Of a stretch of 64,000 nt of DNA, positions 34,253-45,313 are shown piece after piece (the stretch's first letter is position 1; each line of letters begins with the position of its first letter). A program made the position numbers and the translations under genes. The notes beneath the pieces are model-generated. The model saw nothing but the letters and a program-made list of their open reading frames with translations. It searched no databases and was not told where the DNA came from. The stretch covers positions 124,001 through 188,000 of the forward strand of contig JALHRR010000003.1 in assembly GCA_022841345.1 (NCBI GenBank). The letters run 5' to 3'. This stretch comes from Saprospiraceae bacterium (GTDB taxonomy: Bacteria > Bacteroidota > Bacteroidia > Chitinophagales > Saprospiraceae).

Positions 34253-37200
34253 CTACTCCTTCACAAATCTCTGTGAAAACGTAAACCCGCTATCCAGCAG
34301 CTTAAACACATAAACACCCGGCACTAAAGACTTTATCGAAATGTCCTGATCAGAATTGGAGATTCCGCTCATCACTTCCTGTCCCGCAGCATTGATAATT
34401 TGATATTCCCAGTGTTCTCCGGGGCTTGAGTTTCCTGTATCCAACCTTACCAATTGACCGGCTGGATTTGGATACAAGAGCCATTCATCATTTCCGCCCA
34501 ATCTAATTTGTCTGATAGTAGAATAGTTGGCCTGACCTGCCTTATCCACATGTTTGATCCGGTAATAAATATCCTGATTTCTTGATATCGATATGTCTTC
34601 ATATTGATAATTCATCAGAGGAGTTTGTTCAAATTTGCTGTTTATGGATGTGATCGGCTTAAAGTTATAAGCATCACCGATACTGCGCTCCACCTCAAAA
34701 CGATCACTTTCTGTATCTTCCAAAACGGTCCATTCAAGCAGAGCAGATACATTTTTTTCATTTGGCTTAACTTTGAAATCAACCCATTCTATCGGAAGAA
34801 TAGTCAGGAATGCCGGACATAATTCCAATGCCCAATTATTTAATTGCCCACCGGACCCACTCACCAGATCCTTTATTTCCAGTGTCCAGGTGCCGCTGAT
34901 CTGAATCCCGTTTATATCTGAGAAAGGATCTACTGGTTTGTAAATCAGTCCTCCTGTGGGTGGGCAGCTGATAACACTTTGGTTGCTTTGATCATCAAAA
35001 CTCAGGTTGAAATTGGCACTTCCCGGGCAAATACTACTAAACAATTCTAATCTATGATTCATGGGACTGATTAATGTGATTTCCAAATCGCTTACACGTG
35101 AATGTGTTCCGATAAGATTAATCAAATTAATATCTGTTGCCAGACCGGTATCTTCAATATCAATAGTTGATGTCACTGTTGCAGGACCGGTTGGAATGAT
35201 TAAAGGAAACCCGTTGGTTTCATAAATCAGGCATGGAACGGTGGTGAAAGAAAAAACCTCCGACCATTGCCCCTGACCGCAATCAGTGATTCCGCGGACT
35301 CTCCAGTAAATTACAGATGTATGAGGTAACGCTATATTCGGAGTTACTGCAGTTAAAGGGGTGTTGGCAGCAAATGCGATATTTGAAAAAGCTTGATTAA
35401 GTGCTACCTGCACTTCATATTCCAGTGCTTCTGCATCCGGAATCCATGAAAGAGCAGGAACCACAGAAACCTCAGTAGAACCATTTCCGGGCTGTAGTAA
35501 TCCGATTACCGCTGCGACAGGACTCACTATAAGTTGAATATCAACTGAGCGGATGACACCGGGTGAATTTCCACTTACGGTCAATGTATAATTCCCCGGA
35601 CTCAGGTTGGTCAGACCACTAATGTTGAGTGTTGACTGTCCCGGCAAATTCACACTTTGAGGTGTCAAACTTGTATTGACGCCGATCGGAACATTTGTAA
35701 CCTGTAAATTTACAGGGCCCTGAAATCCATTTAATCCAGCCAGGCTGATAGTAACCTGAACAGCGTTTTCTTCACAAATATCCAGAACACCTGGTGTAGC
35801 TGCAATTGTAAAATCATTAGCGGCCTGCTGAATGGTAAAATTTTGGTCTGAGATATCATAAAAAATATTCCCATTTCCTCTGACCATAATTCTGGCACTG
35901 GTCGACGTTTGTGAAATTTGAACATTAGCTGAACCATTATTAGGAACTCCTGTGGCTAATTGAGTCGGGTATGTGAAGCCCCCATCAGTTGAAAGTAAAA
36001 TATCAACAGTGCTGCATGAAACAGGAGAGGCAGTGGTTCCTGCAACGTCCCATGTAACTGTGTGCGTTTGATTTTGTGTCCAAACTTCCCCGCCATTGGG
36101 TTCATTGACAACAAATGGGCCAGCATTGGCCACATTGATAACCACATTATCCTGAGCAGTACAACCGGCAATTCCGGCAATATCCCGAATGGTGACTCTG
36201 AAGTTCATTGTTCTGGCGACAGTGGGAAGTACTTCCCATATATTATTGTTGCCTGCTACAACATCCGCTAGATTGGGCATATACCTTGATGGAGAGGAGT
36301 CAGGAGTCAGGGATCTGAACATGGGACCTCCCGTGCTGAAGCTACTTGGGGGCATCGGAAAATCTATCTGATTATCAAATTGTTCCCAGCAATATGTGAG
36401 CGGATTACCATTCGGATCATTGCCAATGGCTGTCAAAATAAATGGAGTTCCCTGTGGAATATTGCGATCAGCGCCGGCATTAACAGATGGTCCCACATTA
36501 CTAAATGGAATGGAAGTAGCACAAACATTTCCGCTTCCCTGTATAAAATTTGATATTTGTTGTACACTTCTGCCATGCATGTAGGCATCAGAATTCGGTT
36601 GGATATCAGGTGCACATATGCCTGCATAAGCCATGATCGTTGTTCCACTTCCCGGCTCATATGCATTGGCAGCAGAACGGTTATTATTGCAAGAATTGTT
36701 AAAAGTATGTGAGCCTCCAAATTGATGCCCCATCTCATGTGCTACATAATCGATATCAAAAGGGTCTCCAACGGGATTGCTTCTTCCTGTCACACCTCGG
36801 GCTTTATTAGTTGCACTGCACGGACTATTTAAATTAGCGACTCCACCCCCACCGGTCCCAAATACATGCCCGATATCAAAATTAGGCGTTCCTATAATAT
36901 TCGTGCATGTAGTTTGATTCTGGCCCAGCATCGTACTGGCATTATTATTTGTGTAAGGGTCTGTTGTTGGATTATAGAAGAATACTGCCGTGGTATTGGC
37001 AACCAGGATGAGTCTGATTGTTAAGTCGTATTCATAAACCCCGTTAATTCTGTTGATACTTGTCGTGACTGCCGAGAGTACAAGTCCTGATTGCGCAGCA
37101 CTTGTAGCACCAAAATAATTGGAATACTCACCGGTGGTGGCCTGAGCTAGCCTGTAAGATCTGAATTGACAATCCAGCGAACGGGAGCCAAATATCTGCG

Positions 37201-37783
37201 GCTCGGGCTCTGAAGGATTTATTTCCTCAACACCGCAATGGAATGGATCGATATTTTTGGGCCATTTAGCTCTGTCAAAAACTATGTATTCTTCTTTCCC
37301 ACCAATTCTGACAGGATTAATCATCCAGACACCTTTTCGAGAACGCACCATAGCATGGAACCCCAGCTCATTCCAGTCCAATCTGATTTTTTCTTCCGGA
37401 TTGGCCAAATTTTGGCCTTTGAAGGTTTGTATATGAGGATACTGAGCCGCTAATTCAGGCTCCATCATTTCGTATTTCACTATTTCGAAAATACTGACTT
37501 TCCCATCGGGCGAAGGGAGGCTCAATAAAATACCTTCCTGATTTCTTTGTGTTGTAATTTCAGCAGGAGCTTTGGCCAGATCAGCCTTCAGGAGAGCAGA
37601 ATCTAAATGATAAATCAAATATTCGGAAGGCAAAGCAGTAAAATTAGTCTCAGACAACTGAAGCCTTTTGTTTTGAATCTCCCAGGGATTTGGAGCTGTA
37701 TTTTGGGCAAAAACCAGGGTCTTATTCAGAAGAAACAACACAGCGAACAAGCCACAGATTAAGTAACTACGAAGAGAACTCAT
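34253..37783 (-). CDS. Secreted reprolysin-like metalloprotease with P domain and T9SS sorting domain
   Basis: A 1176-residue secreted protease. A signal peptide follows the ATG at 37783 (LICGLFAVLFLLNKTLVFAQ); the TTG at 37789 merely extends the frame. A propeptide of about 200 residues precedes the catalytic domain, whose zinc motif is HEMGHQFGGSH (H349 first), flanked by DIDYVAHEMG and IMAYAGICAPD. This is the reprolysin-like M12B type. Downstream are an NGGEVW/VTWDVAGTT beta domain, an Ig-like domain, an FN3 domain (PALSWIPDAEALEYEVQV), a proprotein-convertase P domain (HSRVSDLEITLISP, GTWTLEIKDLVSGSGGQLNN) and a T9SS type A domain (LLYPNPAGQL ... LVPGVYVFKLLD ... FSQRFVKE). Likely a surface or extracellular proteinase for nutrition. 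Monocistronic. Confidence 0.94.
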   Translation of the reverse strand: MSSLRSYLICGLFAVLFLLNKTLVFAQNTAPNPWEIQNKRLQLSETNFTALPSEYLIYHLDSALLKADLAKAPAEITTQRNQEGILLSLPSPDGKVSIFEIVKYEMMEPELAAQYPHIQTFKGQNLANPEEKIRLDWNELGFHAMVRSRKGVWMINPVRIGGKEEYIVFDRAKWPKNIDPFHCGVEEINPSEPEPQIFGSRSLDCQFRSYRLAQATTGEYSNYFGATSAAQSGLVLSAVTTSINRINGVYEYDLTIRLILVANTTAVFFYNPTTDPYTNNNASTMLGQNQTTCTNIIGTPNFDIGHVFGTGGGGVANLNSPCSATNKARGVTGRSNPVGDPFDIDYVAHEMGHQFGGSHTFNNSCNNNRSAANAYEPGSGTTIMAYAGICAPDIQPNSDAYMHGRSVQQISNFIQGSGNVCATSIPFSNVGPSVNAGADRNIPQGTPFILTAIGNDPNGNPLTYCWEQFDNQIDFPMPPSSFSTGGPMFRSLTPDSSPSRYMPNLADVVAGNNNIWEVLPTVARTMNFRVTIRDIAGIAGCTAQDNVVINVANAGPFVVNEPNGGEVWTQNQTHTVTWDVAGTTASPVSCSTVDILLSTDGGFTYPTQLATGVPNNGSANVQISQTSTSARIMVRGNGNIFYDISDQNFTIQQAANDFTIAATPGVLDICEENAVQVTISLAGLNGFQGPVNLQVTNVPIGVNTSLTPQSVNLPGQSTLNISGLTNLSPGNYTLTVSGNSPGVIRSVDIQLIVSPVAAVIGLLQPGNGSTEVSVVPALSWIPDAEALEYEVQVALNQAFSNIAFAANTPLTAVTPNIALPHTSVIYWRVRGITDCGQGQWSEVFSFTTVPCLIYETNGFPLIIPTGPATVTSTIDIEDTGLATDINLINLIGTHSRVSDLEITLISPMNHRLELFSSICPGSANFNLSFDDQSNQSVISCPPTGGLIYKPVDPFSDINGIQISGTWTLEIKDLVSGSGGQLNNWALELCPAFLTILPIEWVDFKVKPNEKNVSALLEWTVLEDTESDRFEVERSIGDAYNFKPITSINSKFEQTPLMNYQYEDISISRNQDIYYRIKHVDKAGQANYSTIRQIRLGGNDEWLLYPNPAGQLVRLDTGNSSPGEHWEYQIINAAGQEVMSGISNSDQDISIKSLVPGVYVFKLLDSGFTFSQRFVKE

Positions 37784-37902
37784 ATACAAGCAAAATTTGT
37801 CAGTAGGGTAATCAAACAGCTAAGATAAAATCTTTTGTGCAATTTCTTTTGTCGTAAAATAACGGCAGCTTGTATTTATATTGTTAATTCGATTAATACC
37901 AA

Positions 37903-41712: not shown

Positions 41713-42513
41713 TTAGCTGGAAGGAAACATCCACTTCAGAAAAGCCGGCATAGACAATGACCAGGTATATACATCATGCCGGCCACCCAGGATCTCATGA
41801 TAATATATATCACCCGGATAAGTGTATCCTTTAGCTTTTAGTATTTTAATCAGATCAAGCGTATCATCAATAGAGTCGATGATGCCATTATTATTGCGAT
41901 CTTCTGTCTCATCTTCAGTACCACACTGAAACCAGAATCTCATGCCGGGTCTGTTATGACCACCTTCTATTAAGTCGTGAATGATGCGATAGCTATCCGG
42001 AAATAATGGATTAAACCGTTTTTTTCGCCACCATAAAGAACCTGAAAACACCCCACAACCTTTAAACAGATGCGGATAATTCCAGGCTATATCTAAAGCA
42101 GATAATCCACCCAGCGAAAATCCGGCTATAGCTTTAATGGTGAAATCAACATCCAGTCTGATTTTCAAATCTGCCAATAAGTTCTGAATGACAAATTCTA
42201 CATACTTTCCTGCCTTATTTCCACGCTTGAGATAATCCAGTTCTGCAGCAGTCCCATACTCATGCAACCTGTCCCCGGCGTGTACTGCTGCAATGATGAC
42301 GGGCTGGATCATTTGTTGTGCATATAAGTTTTCCAGAATTTTTCTCATTCCCAGCCGCGCCATATCCTGACCATCATTTACAATGAGCAAAGGATAAGAA
42401 CTTCCTTTTCTGAAGCCCGGTGGGAGAAATAATTCGACCTGAACCTGCCGCTCCAAAGAGGCCGAAGGCAGTATAAACATTTGGTGTTCAGGTTTTTGTA
42501 TAGCTGGTGGCAT
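41713..42513 (-). CDS. Esterase, alpha/beta hydrolase (EsteraseD/Fes-like)
   Basis: A 266-residue alpha/beta hydrolase. The nucleophile elbow is GFSLGG, preceded by the family strand YPLLIVNDGQD and followed by FSGSLWWRKKRF. The C-terminal HDVYTWSLSMPAFLKW supplies the catalytic His. An unusual acidic insert, DRNNNGIIDSIDDT, looks like an EF-hand or dockerin-type calcium loop. The ATG at 42513 is preferred over TTG at 42531. No signal peptide is seen, so it is probably cytoplasmic. It is transcribed divergently from the ATP-grasp gene across a 213-bp spacer. As I recall, esterases of this type recur beside ATP-grasp/amidotransferase clusters, so a functional link is plausible but unproven. 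Confidence 0.85.
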   Translation of the reverse strand: MPPAIQKPEHQMFILPSASLERQVQVELFLPPGFRKGSSYPLLIVNDGQDMARLGMRKILENLYAQQMIQPVIIAAVHAGDRLHEYGTAAELDYLKRGNKAGKYVEFVIQNLLADLKIRLDVDFTIKAIAGFSLGGLSALDIAWNYPHLFKGCGVFSGSLWWRKKRFNPLFPDSYRIIHDLIEGGHNRPGMRFWFQCGTEDETEDRNNNGIIDSIDDTLDLIKILKAKGYTYPGDIYYHEILGGRHDVYTWSLSMPAFLKWMFPSS

Positions 42514-42641
42514 GGATTCTTTGAATAACAAGGACGGAAAATAGAAAAACTTTTTGTTCTGTTTACCTTTAATTAACGATTAATTATCATTTCAAATCCT
42601 GGACGGCAGCTCTTATCTATCGAAAGCAAAATGCGGAAAGG

Positions 42642-42726: not shown

Positions 42727-44379
42727 ATGAAGAAAATCGGCATTTTGTTTGGAATGGAAGAAACTTTTCCGAAAGCATTTGTAGACAGAGTAAACAGCAA
42801 AAATGTCAAAGGTATAGTTGCGGAAGCAGTGTCCATTGACAAGGTTATTCAGGGAGAAGCTTCTGATTATGCAGTCATCATTGATAGAATATCACAGGAT
42901 GTGCCTTTCTACAGAGCGATGCTAAAAAATGCGGCCATTTCAGGAACAGCTGTGATCAACAATCCTTTCTGGTGGAGCGCCGATGAAAAATTCTTTAATA
43001 ATGCATTGGCTGTTAATATTGGTGTTCCGGTTCCTAAAACTGCTTTGATTCCTTCTCATGACCGTCCTGATGATACTTCTGAGCGTTCATTCAGAAATCT
43101 GAAATTCCCGTTTGACTGGGAGACTATCTTCAACTATACAGGCTTTCCTGCATATATGAAGCCATTTGCAGGAGGAGGATGGAAGAGTGTTTACAAAATT
43201 AATGATATACAGGATTTCTTTGCCAAGCATCGTGAAACAGGTCAATTGGTAATGATGCTTCAGGAAGAAATTGTTTTTGAAGAATACTATCGTTGCTATT
43301 GCATAGGTGGAAAATACGTGAAAATCATGCCTTATGAGCCCCGTAATCCACATCATCTTCGCTATGTAGCTGATTTCAAACCATCTGCAGCCCGTCTGAA
43401 GGAAATGGAAGATATCGTATTGAGAATCAATCATTACCTGGGTTATGACTTCAATACTGTTGAATTGGCTGTTCGTGATGGCGTTCCTTACGCTATTGAT
43501 TTCTGCAATCCTGCTCCTGATGCTGAAGCAAGCTCTGTGGGAGAAGAAAACTTCGAATGGGTAGTAGAAACTTCTGCAAAATATGCAATCGAAAAAGCTA
43601 AGGCTCATAAAGAAGGTCAGGATAATCTCACATGGGGTCAATATATCTCACGTTCCGTAAACAGGCAGACGCTTTATACTCCTGCTAAAAAAGCTGCTGC
43701 TGCAAAACCTGCTAAAGCTGCCACTGCTAAAGCAAAACCTGTAAAAGCAACCACCCCTAAAGCAAAAGCTTCAAAAACTGTCACTCCGAAAGAGAAAGCT
43801 ATTAAGGCACCAAAAGCGCCTAAAGCACCATCTGCTAAGGTTGCTGCTCCTAAAACAACCCCTGCTGAGAGTGCTATAAAAACAGTGAAACCAAAAACTT
43901 CGACGCCTAAGGTGAAAGCTACCAAAGCTGTAGCCCCTAAAGCGAAAGCTTTAAAAGCTCCAAAAGCGCCTAAGGTGCCTAAGGTGCCTAAAACACCAAC
44001 TATAAAGTCTGCCGATAAGGTTGAAGCACCTAAGGTGGCCGGTACGGACAGTGTTACAAAATCACTGAAACCAAAAACTGCTGCTCCTAAAGCGAAAGCT
44101 GTAAAAGCACCAAAGGCCCCAAAAGTGCCTAAAGCACCAAAAGCAACAGCCACAAAGTCTGCTGCTCCAAAAGTGGCTGGTACAGACAGTGCTCCAAAAA
44201 CTGCAGCTCCTAAAACTACCACTCCTAAGGCAGCAAGTAAGCCTAAGGCAGAAAAACCGGTTGCAAAATCGAAAGCAGATGCTCCAAAGACGGACGTCAA
44301 ACCTGCAGACAAAAAGCCGGCAGCAGAAAAAGCACCTAAAACACCTAAAACACCTAAAACAAAAGTTGACAAGAATTAA
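42727..44379 (+). CDS. ATP-grasp enzyme with a histone H1-like Lys/Ala/Pro-rich tail
   Basis: A 550-residue two-part protein. Residues 1 to about 315 are a RimK-like ATP-grasp domain: MKKIGILFGMEETFPKAF, NNPFWWSADEKFFNNALA, the Gly-rich ATP loop MKPFAGGGWKSVYKI, LQEEIVFEEYYRCY, YEPRNPHHLRY and the metal site YAIDFCNPAPDAE. Such enzymes join a carboxylate to an amine through an acyl phosphate. Residues 319-550 are almost only Lys, Ala, Pro, Thr, Val and Ser, with (K)APKAPKVPK runs and an internal duplication of about 55 residues marked by PKVAGTDS. The tail resembles histone H1/Hc1 or AlgP-like DNA-binding tails. A promoter at 42642-42671 fixes the start. The next gene is a class I glutamine amidotransferase, the usual partner. 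Substrate unknown. Confidence 0.85.
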   Translation: MKKIGILFGMEETFPKAFVDRVNSKNVKGIVAEAVSIDKVIQGEASDYAVIIDRISQDVPFYRAMLKNAAISGTAVINNPFWWSADEKFFNNALAVNIGVPVPKTALIPSHDRPDDTSERSFRNLKFPFDWETIFNYTGFPAYMKPFAGGGWKSVYKINDIQDFFAKHRETGQLVMMLQEEIVFEEYYRCYCIGGKYVKIMPYEPRNPHHLRYVADFKPSAARLKEMEDIVLRINHYLGYDFNTVELAVRDGVPYAIDFCNPAPDAEASSVGEENFEWVVETSAKYAIEKAKAHKEGQDNLTWGQYISRSVNRQTLYTPAKKAAAAKPAKAATAKAKPVKATTPKAKASKTVTPKEKAIKAPKAPKAPSAKVAAPKTTPAESAIKTVKPKTSTPKVKATKAVAPKAKALKAPKAPKVPKVPKTPTIKSADKVEAPKVAGTDSVTKSLKPKTAAPKAKAVKAPKAPKVPKAPKATATKSAAPKVAGTDSAPKTAAPKTTTPKAASKPKAEKPVAKSKADAPKTDVKPADKKPAAEKAPKTPKTPKTKVDKN

Positions 44380-44443: not shown

Positions 44444-45313
44444 ATGAATAATATTCTCATGAACCCAACATATATGTCATCTTCTCTTCCTGTCATACGT
44501 ATTGCAGTGCTGGATCTCAATGCAGGCTTACCCAATCAGGGTATGCGGTGTATTCGCGAAATACTGGAAAAATATCGCGAAGATCAGCAATTGGAAATGG
44601 AGTACGATGTTTTTGAAGTGAGGACAAAGGACGAAGTTCCAGGCACTGATTATGATATTTATATTTCTTCCGGAGGTCCGGGAAGTCCATATGATGGAGA
44701 GGGATTGGTATGGGAAGAAAAATATTTTCAATTATTGACTGATTTGCAGGAACACAATCTGAAAAACGCAAGTTCCTCCAAGCATTTTTTCTTTATCTGT
44801 CATTCTTTTCAAATTGCATGCAGGTATTTTGGCGTTGGCCAGGTAGTAAAAAGAAAATCCACTTCCTTTGGCGTGTTTCCTGTGCATAAAACGGAGGACG
44901 GTCAACTTGAGCCTATCCTCAGCGGATTGGATGATCCTTTTTATGTAGTTGATTCACGTGATTGGCAGGTAATTCAACCTGACCATGAGAAAATTGAAAT
45001 GCTGGGGGCAACTGTACTTGCTCTTGAAAAAATCCGGCCACATGTTGACCTGGAAAGATGTATTATGGCTGTGAGATTTTCAGATTCCTTCTTTGGAACA
45101 CAATTTCATCCGGAAGCGGATTCCAGCGGGATGAGCGCTTATCTCCAAACAGAAGAAAAGCGTAAAATGATCATCGAAAATCATGGCCTGGAAAAATTCG
45201 AAAGTATGGTCACCCAATTAAATGATCCTGATAAAATCAGTCTTACACAAAGCATGATCCTGCCTACATTCCTGGATATGGCTATTCATGCTCGTCAATC
45301 TGTTTTGTCCTGA
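44444..45313 (+). CDS. Class I glutamine amidotransferase (GMP synthase-like)
   Basis: A 289-residue stand-alone glutaminase domain. Triad: nucleophile C119 in FICHSFQIA, then H222 and E224 in GTQFHPEA. The oxyanion region is YISSGGPGSPYDG. It opens IRIAVLDLNAGLPNQGMRCI and has a C-terminal extension of about 60 residues beyond the triad (NHGLEKF ... FLDMAIHARQSVLS). It releases ammonia from glutamine for a partner synthetase; the upstream ATP-grasp protein is the obvious candidate. ATGs at 44444, 44459 and 44474 are all possible starts, and the last best matches where homologues begin. The 64-bp gap to the ATP-grasp gene is mostly hairpin. Confidence 0.88.
   Translation: MNNILMNPTYMSSSLPVIRIAVLDLNAGLPNQGMRCIREILEKYREDQQLEMEYDVFEVRTKDEVPGTDYDIYISSGGPGSPYDGEGLVWEEKYFQLLTDLQEHNLKNASSSKHFFFICHSFQIACRYFGVGQVVKRKSTSFGVFPVHKTEDGQLEPILSGLDDPFYVVDSRDWQVIQPDHEKIEMLGATVLALEKIRPHVDLERCIMAVRFSDSFFGTQFHPEADSSGMSAYLQTEEKRKMIIENHGLEKFESMVTQLNDPDKISLTQSMILPTFLDMAIHARQSVLS

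Follow-up and report, generated by a model that had tools for sequence, protein, structure and literature searches.

RimK, LysX and ArgX are ATP-grasp ligases that activate the carboxylate of a protein partner, with a free amino acid supplying the amino group. RimK carries out the polyglutamylation of RpsF, adding glutamate to the C-terminus of S6, and LysX/ArgX-type ligases handle acidic carriers (LysW). C-terminal tails of the histone H1 type are described from other proteins. Normal polyphosphate granule spacing depends on the KPAA tail of AlgP and KPAA peptides bind DNA, and the similar domain of PhaF is disordered without DNA and binds DNA (PMC9239181, PMC3574117). The PAKKA lysines of PhaM attach PHB granules to the nucleoid, according to a review (PMC9049629). 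In the open-licence literature, seen in part, we found neither an ATP-grasp ligase described as bearing an H1-like tail nor a gene cluster that combines an amidotransferase-like protein, a GspS-like ligase, esterases and often GCS2. A 2009 survey of ATP-grasp amidoligases may already mention this cluster.

Here we describe a ligase gene of this kind in a 64,000-nucleotide stretch of DNA from a Saprospiraceae bacterium (the window). Its features and its immediate neighbours are as follows.

41713..42531, minus strand: esterase (PF00756, E 1.3e-27), divergent neighbour
42727..44379, plus strand: ligase open reading frame, 550 aa, intact frame
42727..43677, plus strand: ATP-grasp ligase core, residues 1-317, of which 1 to about 310 are conserved
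43678..44376, plus strand: Lys/Ala/Pro/Thr-rich tail, 233 residues from TPAKK, net charge +51
43744..43824, plus strand: tail repeat family D2, copy 1 (period 150 nt), from in-frame comparison
43894..43974, plus strand: tail repeat family D2, copy 2 (75% identical to copy 1)
43924..44012, plus strand: tail repeat family D5, copy 1
44074..44162, plus strand: tail repeat family D5, copy 2 (79% identical)
44029..44052, plus strand: PKVAGTDS, first copy (tail position 118)
44167..44190, plus strand: PKVAGTDS, second copy (tail position 164)
44444..45313, plus strand: class I glutamine amidotransferase-like protein, 64 bp downstream of the ligase (Pfam GATase, E 3.6e-11)

A longer frame from 42631 exists; the homologues begin at MKKIGILFG, which makes 42727 the likely start. 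An earlier note on this DNA had described a RimK-like ATP-grasp domain followed by a Lys/Ala/Pro-rich tail, and this architecture is real, with a 550-aa frame, a predicted RimK fold and a 233-residue tail. The tail contains 63 lysines (27%), 57 alanines (24%), 37 prolines (16%) and 28 threonines (12%), together with 7 aspartates and 5 glutamates, and is devoid of arginine, cysteine and aromatic residues. Judged from this composition alone, it is probably disordered. Its lysines are regularly placed: a spacing of 3 occurs 24 times compared to 9.3 in shuffled sequences and a spacing of 5 occurs 17 times compared to 4.9, and KK is scarce (2 compared to 16.9). The strongest repeat has a period of 50 residues and consists of copies of 81-89 nt at a spacing of 150 nt that are 75-79% identical; imperfect repeats are also present as 9-base (KAP-like) and 30-base units. 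PKVAGTDS does occur twice, the copies standing 46 residues apart, and the internal duplication of about 55 residues reported in the earlier note is correct only approximately, the main period being 50. Differences between the repeat copies fall at codon positions 1, 2 and 3 in the numbers 9, 4 and 17 (p 0.011 against one third), and this third-position excess, in a small sample, suits selection on residue type. A sequencing artefact is an unlikely origin for the tail, the frame being open across varied codons. A 232-codon open frame rich in Ala, Phe, Gly and Leu lies antisense to the tail (43674-44372, minus strand); it is a by-product of the Lys/Ala/Pro codons of the plus strand, and nothing marks it as a gene.

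Like AlgP, PhaF and PhaM, the window's protein joins a low-complexity Lys/Ala/Pro C-terminus to an unrelated N-terminal domain, and the C-terminus is Lys/Ala/Pro-rich and, as far as composition indicates, disordered. The net charge of the tail (+51) is close to the +55 given for the whole AlgP protein in PMC9239181. In contrast to these proteins, the N-terminal domain is a ligase rather than a granule-binding or helical domain. The lysines are set 3 or 5 residues apart instead of lying in KPAA repeats, and of the 4- to 5-residue repeats of the KPAA type there is one KPAA, one KPVA and no KTAAA. The AlgP-type label that had been given to the tail is therefore apt for its composition and not for its type of repeat.

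None of the curated families tried in Pfam and NCBIfam claimed the ligase core above its cut-off. The RimK family model rimK_fam (TIGR00768) matched with an E-value of 4.7e-7 and 29.5 bits against a cut-off of 143.4, LysX_arch matched the core well below its cut-off, and the Pfam R2K families (R2K_2/R2K_3; PF18299, PF14243) reached 15.4 of 26.2 and 14.1 of 26.3 bits, short of the gathering score. An AlphaFold2 model of the ligase, for which 53 sequences were used, had a mean pLDDT of 77.9; the stretches near residues 148-152, 206-214 and 262-264 are uncertain in it. The best structural match of the model was RimK of Pseudomonas syringae (7qys_E; Z 20.7, rmsd 3.1, 264 residues aligned), followed by RimK in complex with RpsF (5zk6, Z 20.6), ArgX (Z 19.9) and LysX (Z 19.4). 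Graspetide ligases, synapsins, inositol phosphate kinases and D-Ala ligases were matched at Z 17-18. The predicted structure thus has the RimK/LysX-like ATP-grasp fold. Among 68 aligned sequences, the window's included, 47 columns were invariant. K145, G149-G151, D258 and N261 were kept in 67 of the 68 and E246 in all 68; K104 was kept in only 54. By eye and from known motifs, we take K145 to be the ATP-grasp lysine, G149-G151 the glycine loop and E246, D258 and N261 the Mg ligands, so that, with roles assigned in this way, the ATP- and Mg-binding residues are in place. We expect the core to be an active ligase, one that uses ATP to form an amide from a carboxylate. It resembles RimK, LysX and ArgX in its fold (Z 18-21; residues 1 to about 294) and, with roles assigned by eye, in the ATP-grasp Lys, the glycine-rich loop and the Glu/Asp/Asn of the Mg site. 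It differs from them in being only 13-17% identical and below every curated family cut-off tried, in adjoining a glutamine amidotransferase-like gene, and in that part of its family carries a C-terminal tail.

The ligase was present in 161 of 284 genomes of the window's family and, across the order, in 239 of the 393 genomes sampled. We compared the C-termini in two sets of relatives. The 80 best-scoring named loci (the best 80 of 584; Chitinophagaceae and allied records, 73-78% identical, with L030 cut by a contig end) all end 5-17 residues past the common point, and choosing them by score may over-represent tailless members. The 95 other rows, the window included, come mostly from the window's own family; long open frames and a spread across genera guided their choice, and they are no random sample of the 161 genomes with the ligase. 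From this set, 32 duplicate loci were dropped by sequence containment. Appendage length here spans 0 to 242 residues (median 20), the maximum being the window's. Among the matches listed for the 284 family genomes, the largest open frame (600) is again that of the window, followed by 525, 511 and 491. A further 14 rows, picked for longer frames, included three with tails of 73-83 residues (L280, L281 and L288), which extends long basic tails to other families of the order. The earlier note had treated the pairing of ligase and tail as peculiar, but no fewer than three family-level groups within the order have basic tails. In the window's genus mate (L128), the core is 84-85% identical and the tail is only 72 residues long, of like composition and not reliably alignable. 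A pair of ligases with cores 97% identical (L134 and L135) has tails of 182 and 143 residues.

On a tree of 122 rows, a quick one with SH-aLRT support only, the 27 of the 80 named loci that were included, all tailless, make up the sister clade of the window plus L128 (SH-aLRT 89). The same tree requires at least 21 changes for a tail of 20 or more residues and at least 9 for a tail of 60 or more. Relatives often lack a tail, and every one of the 27 rows sampled from the sister clade does, so the function of the tail is not essential, and by these sequence comparisons the tail appears to be optional and not needed for catalysis. Three ligases (L092, L147 and L200) have arrays of KKAAPA-type hexapeptides at the C-terminus; the contigs of L092 and L147 break inside the array, and their tail lengths are lower bounds. 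Three further relatives (G027:C329, G029:C50 and G347:C159) have a single in-frame stop within the aligned stretch and are degraded copies or sequence errors. The genus g55 (G055, G424 and G450) stands out in a family that is otherwise of high identity: its version of the ligase is divergent and scores much lower (35% identity in G055).

The genes around the ligase recur in the order esterase, (second esterase), ligase, (GCS2), amidotransferase-like protein, GspS-like ligase. The upstream esterase on the opposite strand was found in 79 of the 80 named loci, the exception (L068) having only 41 bases there. Downstream, 77 of the 80 encode a GCS2/YbdK-type carboxylate-amine ligase, 65 of them within 300 bases, and the remaining three have less than 700 bases of downstream sequence before contig ends. 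The named loci also had an amidotransferase-like gene in 13, a second ligase in 11 and a second esterase in 3 cases. The corresponding counts in the 95 other rows were 73, 58 and 39, with GCS2 in 8; all these counts depend on the flanking sequence, mostly 1.5-6 kb. Among rows with tails of 20 or more residues, 35 of 49 had an amidotransferase-like homologue downstream of the ligase. The second ligase, exemplified by a 400-residue protein (L037:10260-11450), had no Pfam match at E 0.01; a model of this copy matched YgiC (7uk8) at Z 24.8, and YjfC, eukaryotic glutathione synthetases and glutathionylspermidine synthetase were also matched (Z 19-25). Thus YbdK/GCS2-type and glutathionylspermidine synthetase/YgiC-type ligases are both encoded near relatives of the window's ligase. 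The window's genome differs in this respect: its second ligase lies on another contig (G000 C23 33005-34195, 47% identity), and a GCS2 query had no match in it or in the genus mate, while each of the 3 control genomes gave a match. Tails of 20 or more residues occurred in 5 rows with GCS2 and 32 without it, and shorter tails in 80 with and 32 without, counting rows with GCS2 found or with at least 2500 bases downstream. We considered the tail as a replacement for GCS2 and rejected this, as the association is a raw one only and the tree yields five independent pairs (sign-test p 0.5-1). Collectively, the neighbours suggest that the cluster serves small amide or peptide chemistry. Elsewhere in the window, a large secreted metalloprotease-like protein (34253-37789, minus strand) has a C-terminal region that, by eye, looks like those of type IX secretion substrates.

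We then asked what persists among the tails. Of the appendages of 15 residues or more, 59 of 61 are net positive, including all 22 in the class of 15-24 residues; the two non-positive ones are L205 (-1) and L137 (-8). Over their last 16 residues, 53 of 93 ligases reach a net charge of at least +4, compared to 8 of 79 tailless named ligases, L092 and L147 being left out of these C-terminus charge counts for their tails cut by contig ends. In other proteins of the same loci, this charge was found in 3 of 70 amidotransferase-like proteins and 1 of 35 esterases, but in none of the second ligases (51), second esterases (39) and GCS2 proteins (7). KAP-like composition of the last 40 residues was found in 18 of 1617 open reading frames of the fetched loci and the window, a set that includes chance frames and many orthologues, and all 18 are the ligase. 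In 843 kb (14%) of the window's genome, one weak case of a basic tail besides the ligase was detected among 664 frames of 100 aa or more, chance frames included, which puts the bias of this tail well outside chance. A basic tail as a general habit of this genome is rejected on that sample. In contrast to the charge, individual positions are not significantly better kept: in 13 close pairs, lysine or arginine was kept at 97 of 147 tail positions and other residues at 184 of 322 (66% compared to 57%, Fisher p 0.084). In the same 13 pairs, the tails differed at codon positions 1, 2 and 3 by 148, 107 and 312 in 469 aligned codons, and the cores by 356, 161 and 1849 in 4017 codons. The tails therefore change far faster than the cores, notably at codon positions 1 and 2. 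Length and sequence of the tail evolve freely and its charge persists, suggesting that charge is the property under selection. A search of homologues for conservation of the tail, as the earlier note had proposed, thus finds none in the sequence and finds it in the charge. Of the observations named there as evidence against a function, half were made: close relatives without a tail exist, and tail length and sequence vary freely.

Five relatives (L137-L141) end in a helix-hairpin-helix-like module. A basic linker precedes it in L138, L139 and L141, with little of one in L140 and L137, and gain or loss of the module requires at least 4 changes on the 122-row tree. A module query taken from L138 had 2-13 matches per genome in those five genomes, the ligase included, and no copy was found in the window's genome at E 0.01. 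Pfam at E 0.01 gave no match to the module in four of the five proteins, and L140 matches HHH_5 below its cut-off. When NCBIfam models were run on one of the five, L139, the module matched the C-terminal parts of several models, all below cut-off: NuoE (E 2.9e-25; 89.8 compared to 514 bits), PhaH (1.2e-14), two L21 models (3.8e-13 and 1.3e-9) and S2 (3.8e-10). The module of L139 therefore resembles, below cut-off, extensions of NuoE, PhaH, L21 and S2, and the ligase C-terminus takes up add-ons of kinds found elsewhere on ribosomal, respiratory and granule proteins. The five relatives share this matching module with those extensions, and the window's protein differs in having the basic tail only. 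The solved sequence relatives of the module lie on a reaction-centre subunit and a complex I subunit, so the module is no proof of nucleic-acid binding.

By analogy with the histone-like tails of AlgP, PhaF and PhaM, the reading that we favour, at a probability of roughly 50%, is that the protein is a RimK/LysX-like small-molecule amide ligase with a dispensable, charge-kept tail that tethers it to a polyanion. The ligase would work in a small-molecule pathway of Chitinophagales together with the amidotransferase-like protein, the esterases and the GspS/YgiC-like second ligase, and in many relatives a YbdK-type GCS2 ligase would join this pathway. The tail would be a C-terminal polycation, probably disordered and not needed for catalysis, that was repeatedly gained or lost, lengthened and shortened through repeat expansion, and retained mainly for its positive charge. 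It may hold the enzyme by low-specificity electrostatics to nucleoid DNA, to RNA or ribosomes, or to polyphosphate. A tether is the best reading because the positive charge persists (59 of 61) and is lacking in the neighbouring families, and because five relatives append a helix-hairpin-helix-like module, which in the one examined (L139) matches ribosomal, respiratory and phasin extensions below cut-off. The tether to a polyanion put forward in the earlier note is accordingly kept. Against it stand the lysine and arginine positions, which are not significantly better kept than others (p 0.084), the much faster change of tails than of cores, the frequent tailless relatives and the two appendages that are not positive.

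Near-neutral drift is the main rival to the tether, and we regard it as a serious minority possibility. It holds that the tail is a nearly neutral low-complexity extension, produced by slippage of codon repeats at a permissive C-terminus, filtered only for gross composition (soluble, not sticky) and with no binding partner. An appendage of 0 to 242 residues over 95 rows is what such drift would leave behind, as are the at least 21 changes for tails of 20 or more residues and at least 9 for tails of 60 or more on the 122-row tree. The genus mate's tail, one third as long and not reliably alignable, the tails of 182 and 143 residues on cores that are 97% identical, the faster change of tails than cores at codon positions 1 and 2, and the KKAAPA-type arrays of L092, L147 and L200, two of them cut by contig ends, are equally in keeping with it. 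However, drift predicts neither net positive charge in 59 of 61 appendages, and in 22 of 22 at 15-24 residues, nor the near absence of such tails in the other proteins sampled, nor the third-position excess between the repeat copies.

The remaining alternatives give the tail a more specific partner. The tail or the module may dock the ligase on the ribosome or RNA and so let it modify a protein, ribosomal or otherwise, much as RimK modifies RpsF. That RimK is the closest fold, the RpsF complex included (5zk6, Z 20.6), and that the L139 module resembles ribosomal L21 and S2 extensions below cut-off would fit this; we nevertheless consider it unlikely, since the NCBIfam rimK_fam score is far below cut-off and the neighbours (GCS2, GspS-like ligase, amidotransferase, esterases) point to small-molecule amide chemistry. 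Somewhat less likely still is a tail that binds an acidic pathway partner or substrate, such as a glutamate-rich peptide, and concentrates it at the active site. Here the acidic carriers of LysX/ArgX-type ligases, the presence of structures with LysW among the matches listed and the adjacent pathway genes are set against the finding that all 80 of the best-scoring named orthologues (best 80 of 584) are tailless and 77 of these 80 keep GCS2. Tail and GCS2 also show no association once relatedness is allowed for, although with five independent pairs (p 0.5-1) the power is low. The earlier note had further suggested that the tail is the enzyme's own substrate, its lysines serving as peptide acceptors. 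With 63 lysines in 233 residues acceptors would be plentiful, yet RimK, LysX and ArgX activate a protein carboxylate and add a free amino acid, and tailless orthologues share the conserved core; this option is disfavoured on both counts and we hold it to be very improbable.

Beyond the tether itself, we suggest tentatively, and with some doubt, that the order keeps a peptide ligase with interchangeable polyanion-binding appendages, which would make for a spatially organised amide-bond pathway. The appendages meant are the H1-like tail and the helix-hairpin-helix-like module, the latter in many cases preceded by a basic linker; repeatedly acquired, they would place a metabolic ligase on the nucleoid, on RNA or ribosomes, or on polyphosphate. 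We found no described counterpart of such a pathway in the open-licence literature, seen in part.

If the tether is true, H1-like tails would extend from storage granules, where AlgP, PhaF and PhaM act, to an amide-ligase pathway. If the tail is near-neutral, it would be a clean case of charge-biased low-complexity drift. Nature provides a series of tails from 0 to 242 residues alongside tailless orthologues, so that what such tails do can be tested directly, and the ligase cluster represents a pathway worth solving.
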